From assembly GCF_026004055.1 (NCBI RefSeq), contig NZ_BPIJ01000003.1, positions 1-64,000 of the forward strand: DNA of 64,000 bases, written 5' to 3'. This DNA comes from Meiothermus sp. GTDB lineage: Bacteria > Deinococcota > Deinococci > Deinococcales > Thermaceae. A model generated the notes under the pieces. It worked only from the letters and a program-made list of their open reading frames with translations, was not told where the DNA came from and did no database searches. The position numbers and the translations under genes were made by a program. This document shows, one piece after another, positions 19,523-24,713 of the stretch; position 1 is the stretch's first letter, and the number at the start of each line of letters is the position of its first letter.

Positions 19523-20710
19523 TTAGTTCCTGAAGACCACATCCTCGCGCTGGAAATTGCGGTAAGCCAGGTAAAGCGCCAGTCCGGCAAAAACCACCGT
19601 GGTGAGCCAGGATAAGCCAAGCTGCGTGGCGGTAGCCGAGCCCTTGACAATTGCGTCCAGGGCCAACACCACGTTCACGAAGGGCAGGGCGAAGAACCAG
19701 TCTTGCAGCTTCAGAAAATCGGAAAACTGAAGGAACAGGATGGGCACCAGCATCACCAGCATCAGGGGGCTCATGTAGCTCTGGGCTTCCTTGTAGCTGC
19801 GGGCGTACAGGCCCAGCGAGATCATGAGGGCGATGATAAGCAGGGCGAACAGCACCGCGGTGACCAGGATGGAAAGGTAGCCCAGCGGCTCCAGGGCCAA
19901 AGCGCCCCCCAACTGGGGTGCGTTTTCTCCTCGCTGAGCGGCCCGAAACTGGGCAGCAAAAAAATTACGTAGCACCCCGCCACTCAGCAAAAGCCCGGTC
20001 ATGGCAGCCAGGGTTGAGAGCAGCGACATCACAAATACCGCCAGTCCCTTGCCCAAGAGGATTTGGATGAGCGGCACGGGGGCCGCCAGGAGGGCCTCGA
20101 GGGTGCCCTTTTCCTTCTCCCCTGCCGTGGCGTCCACCGCCACCGACATCCCCCCCATCTGGATGAACAAGACCAAGAAATAGGGAATGAGGAACGCGAA
20201 CAACCCAGCGGCCCGCTCCTGCTCGCGGGAGGCGTCTTTGGTCTCGAGCCGGAAGGGCTCGAGCACCTCCGGCCCGATGCCCCTAGCCCGCAGGCGCTCG
20301 GCGACAACTTGATCTTTGTACGCCCTGAGCGCACTCTGGACTTTCTCCACCACCAGAGCACTCTGGGTGGCCCCCCCAGAAAGCCGGCCATAGAGGATGT
20401 AGTTGCCATTTTCGTAAACCAGGGCCGCTTGAACCTCGCGGTTCTGTACGGCTTCCTGAGGGTTGGCTATTTCGATAGGCTCTACTTTGGCCTTCTTGAG
20501 TTGCGCCAGCACCTCCGCCGGCACCCCCACCACCCCCACTTTCTGTACGCTCTCCTGGGTTTGTCGTGCGGCATTGCCCAAGAGCAGGATGGGGCCAAAC
20601 ATCAGCAACGGCATGACGAAAATGGGCAGAACCAGGGTGGTGAAGAGCACCCGGCGCTCGCGCACCACGCTCAGAAGCTCCTTTCGGGCGATGATGAAAA
20701 CCTCGTTCAC
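19523..20710 (-). CDS. ABC-2 permease, NatB-like
   Basis: The 395-residue protein has an N-terminal anchor (LFTTLVLPIFVMPLLMFGPI), an extracytoplasmic domain (~residues 45-185) and the permease block AVDATAGEKEKGTLEALLAA followed by about five membrane helices, ending REDVVFRN. In the NatAB family this subunit forms the export channel for Na+ or small amphiphiles. The GTG start overlaps the end of the ATPase gene by 4 bp, so the two are one operon. The external domain parallels that of the 17453 paralogue. Confidence 0.85.
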   Translation of the reverse strand: MNEVFIIARKELLSVVRERRVLFTTLVLPIFVMPLLMFGPILLLGNAARQTQESVQKVGVVGVPAEVLAQLKKAKVEPIEIANPQEAVQNREVQAALVYENGNYILYGRLSGGATQSALVVEKVQSALRAYKDQVVAERLRARGIGPEVLEPFRLETKDASREQERAAGLFAFLIPYFLVLFIQMGGMSVAVDATAGEKEKGTLEALLAAPVPLIQILLGKGLAVFVMSLLSTLAAMTGLLLSGGVLRNFFAAQFRAAQRGENAPQLGGALALEPLGYLSILVTAVLFALLIIALMISLGLYARSYKEAQSYMSPLMLVMLVPILFLQFSDFLKLQDWFFALPFVNVVLALDAIVKGSATATQLGLSWLTTVVFAGLALYLAYRNFQREDVVFRN

Positions 20711-21432
20711 GCCGCCACCTCTTCCAGCCTGCGGATAAAGGCCCGCTCGAGGTTCCCCGACCCCAGCGCCAGCGCTTCTTGGAGGCTGCCCTCATAGACC
20801 AGCAAACCCTTGTCAATGAACCCCACCCGGTCGCAGACCTCCTCGGCCTCGCTCATCACGTGGGTGGAGTAGACCAGGGTTTTGCCCAGGCTGGCGTACT
20901 GTTTGACAAAATCCAGCAAGGCCCGGCGGGCAAACACGTCCAGCCCTGCCGTTGCTTCATCCAGTAAAAGCACCTGCGGCTGGTGCAGGATGGCCCTGGC
21001 AATCACGATCTTCTGCTGCATGCCGCTGGACATGTCCTTCACCTGCTTGTTCAGCACGGCCTGTTCTATGTGTAACAACTCGGCGGCCCAGGCGATGCGC
21101 TCCTTGAGCTTGGCCCCCCACAGGTCGTAAAAACTGCCGAAGAAATCGAGCACCTCGTACCCGGTTAGCTTGTCGTAGACCTTCATGCCGCCATTCACAA
21201 TGCCCAGATTGCGGCGTACTTCCAGCGATTGCCGCACCACGTCAAAACCCGCAACCCTGGCACTTCCCGCTGTGGGCCTGAGCAGGGTGGCCAGCATTCG
21301 CAGGGTGGTGGTTTTGCCGGCGCCGTTGGGCCCCAACAGGCCGTAGACCTCTCCGGGTCGCACCTCGAAGGAAACCCCCCGAACCGCCTGAAACCTGCGG
21401 TAGGTTTTCTGTAGGTTTGAGGCTTCGATCAT
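20707..21432 (-). CDS. ABC ATPase, NatA-like
   Basis: The 241-residue ATPase carries Walker A GLLGPNGAGKTTTLRMLATL, signature DMSSGMQQKIVIARAIL, Walker B QVLLLDEATAGLD and switch His (YSTHVMSEAEEVCDRVGFID). SSGMQQK and DEAT are usual for the NatA group. Its stop overlaps the start of the NatB-like permease by 4 bp. A TATATT box 7 nt before the ATG suggests a leaderless mRNA. It may also serve the second permease gene 2 kb downstream. Confidence 0.88.
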   Translation of the reverse strand: MIEASNLQKTYRRFQAVRGVSFEVRPGEVYGLLGPNGAGKTTTLRMLATLLRPTAGSARVAGFDVVRQSLEVRRNLGIVNGGMKVYDKLTGYEVLDFFGSFYDLWGAKLKERIAWAAELLHIEQAVLNKQVKDMSSGMQQKIVIARAILHQPQVLLLDEATAGLDVFARRALLDFVKQYASLGKTLVYSTHVMSEAEEVCDRVGFIDKGLLVYEGSLQEALALGSGNLERAFIRRLEEVAA

Positions 21433-21607: not shown

Positions 21608-22435
21608 TTACCCCGTCCGCTTGAGCTTGCCGGTGCGCTTGGCCCATTGTTCCGCCGTGTGAAATACCAGAAGGCCCAGAGGGATGAGCACCACGCCCAT
21701 CAAGAGGAGAATGCCCAGCTCGGGCAGCACCGAGGAGAGCGGGGCCCCCACCAACTTGTCCGGGGTGGAGTCGGGGTGGTTGATGCCCATCAGCTTGCGG
21801 CAGGCCTCGAGGGCGTAGGTGGCCGGGCTCAGGTAGGCCAGAGGCTGCACCCAGGTGGGCAGCACGGTCACCGGGTAGTAGATGCCCGAGACCAAGAGCA
21901 AGATACCCTGGAAGATGTTGGTGGCCTGGGCCCCGTTTTCCGGCGACATCACCGGCAAGATGGCGGCCATCAGGCCCAGGCCCATAAAGGCCAGGCTGGC
22001 CACCAGCAGAACCACCAGCACCCCCAGCAGGTTGGCTCCGGTCACCGAAACCTGAATAAAGAGCACCAGCCCCACCAGGATCACGATGGTGCGAAACACG
22101 CTAAAGATAATGGCAAACAGCGAAACCCCCGAGAGGTGGACAAGCCTCGAGACCGGGGCCATAAAGGTGTACTCGAGCGTCCCCTCCCAGCGCTCGTAGC
22201 TGATGGAGTTGGCAATCTCGTTGTACATGGCCGACAAAAACGACCACAAGAGCACCCCCAGCAGGAGCGTGAGGGTCAGGCGGAAGTCGTCCTGGGCCTT
22301 ACCGATGAGGGCGATGGTGGCCGAGTTGACGATGGCATAAAACACGAACACCGCCACCCAGCTCATGTAGCGCCGGGTCAGGTGCCAGTCGCGGAAGACA
22401 AAGGCCCACATGGGGCGAAGGTATCGTTCAAGCAT
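21608..22435 (-). CDS. ABC-2 permease of the DrrB/NodJ type
   Basis: The 275-residue protein has six membrane segments and the ABC-2 signature region (GLMAAILPVMSPENGAQATN, VSGIYYPVTVLPTWVQPLAY), with a conserved amphipathic start (FVFRDWHLTRRYMSW). It is the membrane half of an exporter whose ATPase is encoded 57 bp upstream in the same direction. The substrate is not evident; drug or glycoconjugate export is common for the family. Confidence 0.83.
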   Translation of the reverse strand: MLERYLRPMWAFVFRDWHLTRRYMSWVAVFVFYAIVNSATIALIGKAQDDFRLTLTLLLGVLLWSFLSAMYNEIANSISYERWEGTLEYTFMAPVSRLVHLSGVSLFAIIFSVFRTIVILVGLVLFIQVSVTGANLLGVLVVLLVASLAFMGLGLMAAILPVMSPENGAQATNIFQGILLLVSGIYYPVTVLPTWVQPLAYLSPATYALEACRKLMGINHPDSTPDKLVGAPLSSVLPELGILLLMGVVLIPLGLLVFHTAEQWAKRTGKLKRTG

Positions 22436-22492: not shown

Positions 22493-23305
22493 CTATAGAC
22501 TATCGGCCTCTTCGTCCAGGTCTTCGCCGGTGAGGGCAATGAAGGCCTCCTCCAGGTCGGCGGTACCCGCCCGGCGCTTGAGTTCTTCTGCGGTGCCCTC
22601 GGCTACCAGCCGCCCGTGGGCCAGGAAGCCAATGCGGTGGGCCAGCCGCTCGGCCTCGGCCATGTCGTGGGTGGTAAGGAGAATGGTGGTGCCCTCGCGG
22701 GCGCGCAGGTCTTCCAGAAAAGCCTGCACGTCGCGGCGGCTCTTGGGGTCGAGGCCGGTGGTGGGCTCATCCAGGAGCAAAAGCGGGGGGTTGATCAGGA
22801 GGGCTCGGGCGATGGAAATCTTTTGTTGCATGCCCCGGCTCATCTCTTCGATGGGGTCGCCGAAGCGGCGGGACTCCAAGCCTAGTTGCTCCAGAATCTG
22901 CATGGCCCTTTTTTCGGCCTGGCGAGGCTCGAGGCCATAAAGTTGCGCGGCATAGAGCAGGTTCTCGCGGGGCGAGAGCTTCTTGTAGAAAGCCGCATCC
23001 ACACTCACCCGGCCCATCTTGCGGCGCAGCTTGGCCTCATCTTCCGGCAGGCGGTAGCCCAGCATCCGCACCGTGCCGCCATCAGGGGTCAGTAGGGTGG
23101 ACAGGATGCGAATCAGGGTGGATTTACCCGAGCCATTGGGCCCCAGGAGGCCATAGGTCTCGCCTTCTCGAACATGAAAAGAAACCCCCTTGAGGGCCCA
23201 TTCTTCTTTGAGGGGTGCGCGCAGTCCGTCTCGTTTACGAAAGACCTTTTTGAGATCGGAGACCTCGATGGCGAGTTGGGTCTGGCTGGGTTTTAGGGTC
23301 AGCAT
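22493..23305 (-). CDS. ABC exporter ATPase, DrrA-like
   Basis: The 270-residue ATPase has Walker A LLGPNGSGKSTLIRILSTLL, signature EMSRGMQQKISIARALL, Walker B PLLLLDEPTTGLDP and switch TTHDMAEAERLAHRIGFL. The tail (LEEAFIALTGEDLDEEAD) is typical of drug-resistance ATPases. It heads an operon with the permease at 21608. Its leader is unusual: two short ORFs and a UUCG-capped terminator lie between promoter and gene (23327-23554), so expression is probably set by attenuation, as in antibiotic-induced exporters. Confidence 0.88.
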   Translation of the reverse strand: MLTLKPSQTQLAIEVSDLKKVFRKRDGLRAPLKEEWALKGVSFHVREGETYGLLGPNGSGKSTLIRILSTLLTPDGGTVRMLGYRLPEDEAKLRRKMGRVSVDAAFYKKLSPRENLLYAAQLYGLEPRQAEKRAMQILEQLGLESRRFGDPIEEMSRGMQQKISIARALLINPPLLLLDEPTTGLDPKSRRDVQAFLEDLRAREGTTILLTTHDMAEAERLAHRIGFLAHGRLVAEGTAEELKRRAGTADLEEAFIALTGEDLDEEADSL

Positions 23306-23326
23306 AGATGATCCTGTTTGAGTGGG

Positions 23327-23377
23327 TTATTGAGACTTGGGGTCGTATGAGCCGGTCTGGGCTTGGAAGTTTGGCAT
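23327..23377 (-). CDS. Short leader ORF 2, 16 residues
   Basis: ATG preceded by GGAGGGG encodes MPNFQAQTGSYDPKSQ and ends 22 bp before the ATPase start. It lies just past the terminator-like hairpin at 23385-23414. With such a strong ribosome site it is probably translated and may couple translation to the ATPase gene. Confidence 0.45.
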   Translation of the reverse strand: MPNFQAQTGSYDPKSQ

Positions 23378-23384
23378 GGCCCCT

Positions 23385-23414
23385 CCAAACAAATCGGCGG
23401 CCCGAAGGCCGCCG
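23385..23414 (-). terminator. UUCG-capped hairpin, possible attenuator
   Basis: On the minus strand CGGCGGCC-TTCG-GGCCGCCG forms an 8-bp GC stem with a UUCG tetraloop, followed by ATTTGTTTGG. The T-run is broken, so termination may be partial. A 7-bp palindrome (AACGCTA/TAGCGTT) sits just before it and could compete in folding. Confidence 0.5.
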
Positions 23415-23463
23415 AGAAAACGCTACTAGCGTTCTGAATGCGGGTCGGGTGGGGGTCGGCGCC

Positions 23464-23505
23464 TCAGGCGCGGAACCAGGTCATTAGAACAATACGATCC
23501 ATCAT
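23464..23505 (-). CDS. Leader peptide MMDRIVLMTWFRA
   Basis: A 13-codon ORF starts ~13 nt after the predicted transcription start, with AGGTGA upstream; the second ATG (23502) has the better spacing. The stop codon lies in a small GC palindrome (GCGCCTCAGGCGC). Its place before a terminator and an exporter ATPase suggests that ribosome stalling on it controls read-through. Confidence 0.5.
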   Translation of the reverse strand: MMDRIVLMTWFRA

Positions 23506-23524
23506 GGCTCACCTACCAAAGTCA

Positions 23525-23554
23525 AGTGTACGCGCAAGCCGTGCGAGTTGGCAA
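23525..23554 (-). promoter_or_regulatory. Promoter of the attenuated ABC operon
   Basis: On the minus strand TTGCCA (23554-23549) and TACACT (23530-23525) are separated by 18 bp. Transcription would begin near 23518, just upstream of the leader peptide. Confidence 0.5.
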
Positions 23555-23576: not shown

Positions 23577-24713
23577 TCAGACGATGTTTTTCTCCGCCAA
23601 CTTTCGGGTCTGGGCAAAACGCTCGTAGCGGAGTGGATTTATGTCCAGGCTATGCGCCTCTCCATCGGCAATTTCTTCGGCTATCAGTCGGCCTACCATG
23701 GCGGCCTGCTGCACGCCGTGGCCGGAGAAGCCGCAGGCATTGAACCAGCCCCCCACCCCCGGCATCCGGCCTAAAATGGGGTTGTGGTCGGGGGTGACCT
23801 CGTAGTAGCCCCACCAACTGGCCTTCTGGTCAAGCTGAAACCGCTCGAGCCAGGGGAAGCGGGCCAGGCCCACCTCCAGGGTCGGCTCGAGCCAGCTCCA
23901 GTCCATGCCTTCCTGGAAACCCAGATCCGCCGGATTGCTACGGCCAAAAATGAGACGGTCGTGCTCGGGGCGGAACCAGAAGCCGCTCGAGAGGTCGATG
24001 GTCAAGGGATGCCAGGAGGGGTATGGAATGGGAGCTGTACAGAAAACCATACGGCGCGCCGGTTCCACGGGAATAGATAACCCCACCCGGCGCCCCACCT
24101 CACCCGCCCAGGCCCCCGCCGCATTGAGCACAAACCGGGTCTGGAACAACCCCCTAGAGGTCTTGACCCTCCACCCACTCCCCACCTGCTCGGCCGCCCG
24201 GAACTCGGTTTCGGTATGTACCTCAGCACCCAGCTTGCGGGCGCGGCGCAGGTACTCCAGGCAGATTCCGTGCGGGTCAACGATGCCGTCGGCAGGGCCA
24301 AAGGTGGCTCCCCCAATGGGCTCCAGGCTCTCTGCGGTGGGCAGAAAGTCGAACCACTCCTGGGCGGCTTCCAGGTCGCGCACTTCCACCGGCACGCCCA
24401 GGCTTTGTTGAAGCTCCACGCCCTTCAGATGCGAATCCCACTGGCTATCCGGCACCAAAAACAAATAGCCGATGGGCCGGTAGGCAGCCTCGGGCATAGC
24501 CCGGTACTCCAGGATGGAGTGCCAGGAGAGCAGGATGTTGGTGGCCTCGGTAAACTGCACCCGTACTCCCGCCGCACTCTTGCCGGTGGAGCCCATCGCC
24601 GGTGCGGGCGCCTGCTCGAGCACCCCCACCCTCAGGCCCCGCTCGGCCAGGCGGTAGGCGCAGGCCGCCCCGATAATGCCCGCCCCCACCACCAACACGT
24701 CGTAGCGAATCAT
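23577..24713 (-). CDS. FAD-dependent amino-acid oxidase/dehydrogenase family protein
   Basis: ATG at 24713 (MIRYDVLVVGAGIIGAACAY) is chosen because it places the dinucleotide-binding GxGxxG motif at the N-terminus and has AGGCGCG upstream. The 378-residue protein is a DAO-fold enzyme of the glycine oxidase/sarcosine oxidase group: QFTEATNILLSWHSILEY, NAAGAWAGEVGRRVGLSIPV, WWGYYEVTPDHNPILGRMPG and a C-terminal FAD motif GFSGHGVQQAAMVGRLIAEE. It would oxidise an amine or imino acid; the substrate cannot be read from sequence. It is single, with the phosphate transporter gene 44 bp upstream. Confidence 0.83.
   Translation of the reverse strand: MIRYDVLVVGAGIIGAACAYRLAERGLRVGVLEQAPAPAMGSTGKSAAGVRVQFTEATNILLSWHSILEYRAMPEAAYRPIGYLFLVPDSQWDSHLKGVELQQSLGVPVEVRDLEAAQEWFDFLPTAESLEPIGGATFGPADGIVDPHGICLEYLRRARKLGAEVHTETEFRAAEQVGSGWRVKTSRGLFQTRFVLNAAGAWAGEVGRRVGLSIPVEPARRMVFCTAPIPYPSWHPLTIDLSSGFWFRPEHDRLIFGRSNPADLGFQEGMDWSWLEPTLEVGLARFPWLERFQLDQKASWWGYYEVTPDHNPILGRMPGVGGWFNACGFSGHGVQQAAMVGRLIAEEIADGEAHSLDINPLRYERFAQTRKLAEKNIV

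Follow-up and report, generated by a model that had tools for sequence, protein, structure and literature searches.

A short leader reading frame conserved upstream of an ABC-2 exporter in Meiothermus and other phyla, probably a family of ribosome-arrest attenuators

Several resistance genes are preceded by short upstream reading frames (uORFs). The yxjB (tlrB) leader of Bacillus subtilis encodes MIIQFIRYR and is linked to tylosin (PMC6851288), while the msrDL leader of mefA/msrD encodes MYLIFM, on which erythromycin arrests the ribosome at the stop codon (PMC10314930). In the whiB7/wblC attenuator of actinobacteria, which answers ribosome drugs, a uORF is combined with an intrinsic terminator and an antiterminator (PMC9618640), and toiL responds to several drug classes (PMC12121999). 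Under macrolides and ketolides, ribosomes stall at R/K-x-R/K motifs, and erythromycin arrest on ErmDL does not always require such a motif (PMC8298421). In the vmlR leader of B. subtilis, a uORF and transcription attenuation are likewise found upstream of a resistance gene of ABC type (PMC9226507).

The window analysed here is a stretch of 64,000 nucleotides of Meiothermus sp. (RefSeq assembly GCF_026004055.1, contig NZ_BPIJ01000003.1, positions 1 to 64,000), whose genome is 3.18 Mb. On its minus strand an ABC-2 exporter is preceded by a leader (Table 1) that an earlier note, made from the letters alone, had read as antibiotic-induced attenuation. Like the yxjB leader, the candidate element has a very short hydrophobic uORF, R-x-R near its end in relatives and a putative terminator between leader and resistance gene. 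The yxjB system differs in that its target is a 23S methyltransferase, no antiterminator has been identified and RNA polymerase pausing has been shown (PMC6851288), whereas the Thermaceae element has an exporter as its putative target, an antiterminator and often an Ala-stop past the motif. With msrDL it would share transcription attenuation and a setting of transport or ABC resistance; however, msrD is an ABC-F gene whose terminator is blocked by the stalled ribosome itself (PMC10314930), and the Thermaceae leaders are longer, R-rich and Ala-terminated. The actinobacterial attenuator would be alike in its three parts and in its response to ribosome drugs, and differs in controlling a transcription factor and in its unrelated sequence. 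ErmDL-type +X+ leaders likewise carry R-x-R (RLR in ErmDL) within a short leader, but have an erm methyltransferase downstream and another RNA fold, while vmlR is an ABC-F gene of Firmicutes with other sequence and RNA structures. A literature search for Meiothermus leader peptides found none.

The exporter pair matches both Pfam ABC_tran and ABC2_membrane. With 244 bits against 312 (drrA) and 45 against 223 (drrB), both proteins score below the NCBIfam cut-offs; the pair is a related ABC-2 exporter rather than a proven DrrAB. Across phyla the unit that travels is uORF, ATPase and permease, the second pair being a neighbour in Meiothermus and Calidithermus. The promoter boxes and the 13-codon reading frame with its stop in a palindrome, all described in the earlier note, were recovered on the minus strand, and the UUCG hairpin that it gave as 8 bp is present and near-invariant in orthologues with a stem of 9 bp. 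In the single sequence the signals exceed chance modestly (three terminator-like sites against 1.4 expected), and no Rfam covariance model reached its gathering score within the window. Despite this modest signal the leader elements are judged to be real because they are conserved across orthologues.

Table 1. Features of the leader and of the genes that it precedes, with positions in the window.
Feature	Positions	Strand	Remark
-35 box TTGCCA	23549-23554	-	TTGCNN 17-18 nt before -10 in most relatives
-10 box TACACT	23525-23530	-	Also in sister genera and Meiothermus orthologues; exceptions L006 TAGGCT, L016 TATACT
uORF Shine-Dalgarno AGGTGA	23509-23514	-	Near predicted transcript 5' end
uORF MMDRIVLMTWFRA	23464-23505	-	13 codons and TGA; proposed sensor, from conservation
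P1 hairpin GCGCC-TGA-GGCGC	23459-23471	-	Spans uORF stop; from folding of relatives
Antiterminator 5' strand CCCGA-C-CCGC (CCCGACCCGC)	23440-23449	-	14 nt past uORF stop; CCCGA near-invariant
P2 hairpin AACGCT-AGT-AGCGTT (23433-23419)	23417-23435	-	Extendable to 8 pairs; nested within antiterminator
Terminator-like hairpin TCGGCGGCC-TTCG-GGCCGCCGA	23394-23415	-	9 bp, UUCG cap; near-invariant in relatives
Antiterminator 3' strand GCGG-CCT-TCGGG	23401-23412	-	Within terminator: 5' arm, loop, start of 3' arm
Imperfect U-tract TTTGTTTGG	23385-23393	-	TTTGG retained in most relatives
ORF2 MPNFQAQTGSYDPKSQ	23327-23377	-	GGAGGGG ribosome site; clade-specific, probably outside the switch
ABC-2 exporter ATPase, DrrA-like	22493-23305	-	Regulated gene 1; ATG at 23305
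ABC-2 exporter permease	21608-22435	-	Regulated gene 2; partner of ATPase
Second ABC ATPase	20707-21432	-	Probably same operon; Meiothermus and Calidithermus
Second ABC-2 permease, NatB-like	19523-20710	-	Probably same operon

A uORF of 6-14 codons with a ribosome site occupies the corresponding place in all 19 exporter orthologues from Meiothermus, Calidithermus, sister genera and one related family of the same order (L001-L019), against a mean of 1.4 and a maximum of 4 in 100 dinucleotide shuffles. It is found in 20 of 30 wider orthologues (shuffle mean 1.9, maximum 6), mostly 59-79% identical and drawn mainly from Acidobacteriota (Pyrinomonadaceae among them) and Rokubacteria, with a few from Deinococcota and other groups, and in just one of 33 distant homologues (about 45-57% identity; 2.7 expected); these sequences are related and the counts hence not independent. 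Conservation of the leader frame, on which the earlier note had staked its reading, thus extends well beyond the genus. The uORF Shine-Dalgarno sequence (AGGTG, GGGTG or CGGTG) is retained in nearly all relatives, other phyla included. Substitutions within the uORF show no strong synonymous bias (the three codon positions have 3, 2 and 5 variable columns), which is a point against the attenuator reading. Since the reading frame stayed while the peptides diverged almost completely between phyla, a function is likely. Taken together, three or more bacterial phyla keep a predicted uORF in front of the same multidrug-type exporter. In Thermus igniterrae (L048) both exporter genes are present (76% and 79% identical) with no recognisable uORF or antiterminator; upstream of 3001 at that locus, TAGGCT, which resembles a promoter box, and a hairpin of CCCCC with GGGGG lie near the gene.

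Competing RNA folds follow the uORF. When the terminator 3' arm is omitted, as during transcription, every Thermaceae homologue adopts an antiterminator fold that the earlier note had missed, in which the partner of CCCGA(A) is (T)TCGGG of the loop and 3' arm; most homologues also join CCGC to GCGG of the 5' arm. This fold excludes the terminator and encloses P2. Its first strand lies 10-14 nt past the uORF stop in 22 elements, and 21 of these have a duplex energy better than 95% of their shuffles. Matching changes are seen in Meiothermus luteus (CCCCAA:TTGGGG, L006), in L015 (G-U) and in an extra copy of Calidithermus chliarophilus (CTGC:GCAG), covariation being limited overall by the near-invariance of the strand. 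For P2, 13 of 19 cases exceed 95% of shuffles in stability, and in other genera stems of unrelated sequence take its place. A P1-like hairpin lies at the uORF end in most, though not all, relatives; as a conserved structure P1 was set aside, being statistically weak (p ≤ 0.05 in 4 of 22). The comparison of relatives therefore supports the predicted uORF, promoter, P2, terminator-like hairpin and antiterminator complementarity.

Judged by standard footprints, the narrow spacing of 10-14 nt would put the antiterminator strand at, or just past, the expected front edge of a ribosome that sits close to the uORF end. The two folds differ by about 0-11 kcal/mol with the terminator equal or favoured, so that the folds alone do not tell which state wins. 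An anti-antiterminator overlapping the uORF is a part of classical attenuators, although not of all (for yxjB not even an antiterminator was identified, PMC6851288). It was sought here in the Shine-Dalgarno region, the uORF body and the post-terminator tail, where complementarity was no better than in shuffles, and the link between ribosome position and switch is consequently one that we infer. The U-tracts are poor in several species, down to AGTGCTTTGG in L016, and, like the computed energies and the lack of an anti-antiterminator, they count against attenuation.

On balance, the element is rather likely to be a ribosome-sensing transcription attenuator of the exporter, with a macrolide-type drug as the most likely inducer. 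RNA polymerase would initiate about 12 nt upstream of the uORF. Under normal translation the uORF would be completed quickly, the UUCG hairpin would form and, acting as a terminator, would stop most transcripts. A drug in the exit tunnel or peptidyl-transferase centre would instead cause arrest close to the C-terminal codons of the uORF; such arrest, and not starvation, is presumed to be the signal. The CCCGA..CCGC strand just past the halted ribosome could then pair with GCGG..TCGGG of the terminator 5' arm and loop, enclosing P2, so that the position of the ribosome would decide the fold; with the terminator blocked, the exporter ATPase and permease would be transcribed, here together with the second pair. 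This kind of control is known; the group probably forms a new family of it, shared between phyla, in which ribosome arrest would relieve the attenuation of an exporter and macrolide-like drugs are the probable inducers.

Among 50 Thermaceae genomes, a covariance model of the element matches 17, with a single match per genome at the exporter apart from two further, weaker ones in C. chliarophilus, and it gives no match in the genomes without a close orthologue; out of some 2,400 candidates in each genome 81 were scored, and 6 in another scan, so these absences are soft. An independent pattern search concurs in placing extra copies in C. chliarophilus alone, most of its other matches looking like chance. 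One extra copy (L180, G022:C3:2207500-2211600, and L128) has the uORF MIDLA and an antiterminator pairing CCCGAAACCTGC with GCAGCCTTCGGG, and is followed, some 0.5 kb further on, by an ABC-F gene (371 bits against a ribosomal-protection-like ABC-F model, cut-off 380), with an intervening 85-residue reading frame that has no Pfam match. The other (L181, G022:C3:1166500-1170100, and L129) has the uORF MIESL directly before another ABC-2 exporter, composed of a 338-aa ATPase and two permeases.

Leaders from beyond the Thermaceae carry different RNA after the uORF, in which a hairpin with a T/C-rich tail can often be seen by eye. Such a hairpin lies just past the uORF in five Acidobacteriota loci (L055, L056, L062, L063, L066), where a GCGG strand could also pair with ACCGC/GCCGC past the stop and a second hairpin is found near the ATPase ribosome site. 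In Rokubacteria (L040, L041, L047, L052, L131) GACCGAGTAAGC or a variant immediately follows the stop codon, with GCTTACTTCGGTC (L131) or CTACCTCGGTC (L052) as its downstream partner; a long-range helix in the shadow of the ribosome is possible. The long-range post-stop helices of Acidobacteriota and Rokubacteria, although visible by eye, are mostly non-significant per sequence, and neither they nor these hairpins are claimed.

The leader peptides range from 5 to 15 codons across the family. Those of Thermaceae include MIDCIVLLTRFRA, MIDPIVLMTRFRA, MNDHIVLMTRFRA, MNDRIVLMTWFRA, MNDPIVMCMIRLRA, MNDLIWIIRFKA, MSNRILIRMSRFFA, MMGSILMIRARF, MNNFIRMARPWA, MNDFIRMTGLWA, MSNILMLRVRF, MSIDLILLVRA and MIRVCA, and those of the related family MIRMQRA and MRTRHA. 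Acidobacteriota have MKVVLFLMIRPRH, MKIIFMQF, MRFRIIRLA, MRFRTIRLA, MISMKLFRLA, MLIRFLLA, MRIIH and MKVVLFLKVWLIDRA, and Rokubacteria MYLFL, MHLFR, MHLFS, MYIHR and MHIPH, of which the first two resemble MsrDL, by sequence alone, as hydrophobic leaders of 5-6 codons. Of the 39 peptides, 13 contain R/K-x-R/K (RFR, RLR, RVR), where shuffled peptides give 7.6 (p 0.011). Ala-stop ends 25 of the 39, with 3.0 expected and none of 2,000 shuffles reaching that number, and spans two phyla with different RNA contexts (L001-L019 and the Acidobacteriota loci L045, L051, L055, L056, L062, L063, L066 and L070). The window peptide itself has WFR, which replaces RFR in two relatives as well, and its Trp stands at the position of the first Arg in most close relatives; pure +X+ arrest would be weakened by this, and the window peptide may respond differently. 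The earlier note could not assign the peptide to a stalling class; mainly through its relatives it can now be placed near the macrolide-arrest leaders.

We know of no nameable arrest class that accounts for Ala directly before a stop. It is conceivable, if doubtful, that a new class of arrest peptide, with a C-terminal Ala-stop after a hydrophobic or arginine stretch, senses an exit-tunnel ligand, perhaps the natural substrate of the exporter, by preventing either termination or formation of the last peptide bond; it would be common to Deinococcota, Acidobacteriota and Rokubacteria, and each lineage would have combined it with a separate RNA switch, which in Thermaceae is an antiterminator with no anti-antiterminator. 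Rather unlikely, though the first among the rival explanations, is a general sensor of translation stress resembling whiB7/wblC, in which any failure to translate the uORF frees the antiterminator and no arrest motif is needed. The absence of a detectable anti-antiterminator would leave the antiterminator free whenever no ribosome is near the uORF end, the peptides are very diverse (MIRVCA, MIDLA and MIESL being without +X+), whiB7 pairs uORF attenuation with an antiterminator (PMC9618640) and toiL has a broad drug response (PMC12121999). However, the non-random Ala-stop and R/K-x-R/K frequencies indicate that the peptide sequence matters.

Control of translation, in which the hairpins would mask the region where ORF2 or the ATPase begins, is unlikely. 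The U-tracts are weak, the ATPase ribosome site lies directly 3' of the hairpin in L018 and L019, and ORF2 overlaps the ATPase start in L002-L004, all of which would suit masking; but in most Meiothermus the hairpin is at least 70 nt upstream of the ATPase start, and a mutually exclusive fold around the same hairpin is a mark of termination control. ORF2 itself, which the earlier note had counted as part of the device, is recognisable in L002-L004 only, differs in L005 and L007 and is absent elsewhere, and a role as a conserved coding or coupling element is ruled out beyond the closest clade. In L002-L004 it forms 26 codons (MPxFQAQT...) across the ATPase start codon, the window version being cut to 16, which suggests translational coupling in that clade.

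Attenuation by amino-acid supply, in which scarce charged Ile/Leu/Val or Arg tRNA would stall the ribosome as in the ilv and leu leaders, is improbable: I, L, V and R are abundant in the peptides, but the uORFs, down to 5 codons long, have no run of regulatory codons, the residues change freely between species and the regulated gene is an exporter. Least credible of all is chance, with a spurious short frame before a common terminator that serves the oxidoreductase gene upstream, which is on the same strand and ends at 23577 in a genome of a type where GC-rich UUCG hairpins are common, as promoter, ribosome site, uORF, spacing and antiterminator are all conserved, the leader persists despite a different upstream gene (L012, L015, L018) and the uORF persists in other phyla.

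The drug-sensing leader attenuators that we located in the literature belong to Firmicutes, actinobacteria and enterobacteria. Ribosome-arrest attenuation as proposed here predicts that thermophilic Deinococcota and soil Acidobacteriota and Rokubacteria control an uncharacterised exporter likewise, and such control would point to ribosome-targeting natural products as its substrates. Furthermore, the roughly 39 natural variants of one leader, those of 5 codons included, could serve as material for tests of arrest among peptide, drug and ribosome, for which Thermus ribosomes are a standard structural system. For the cells that carry it, the conserved leader suggests that their own ribosome may act as the antibiotic sensor that switches the pump on.
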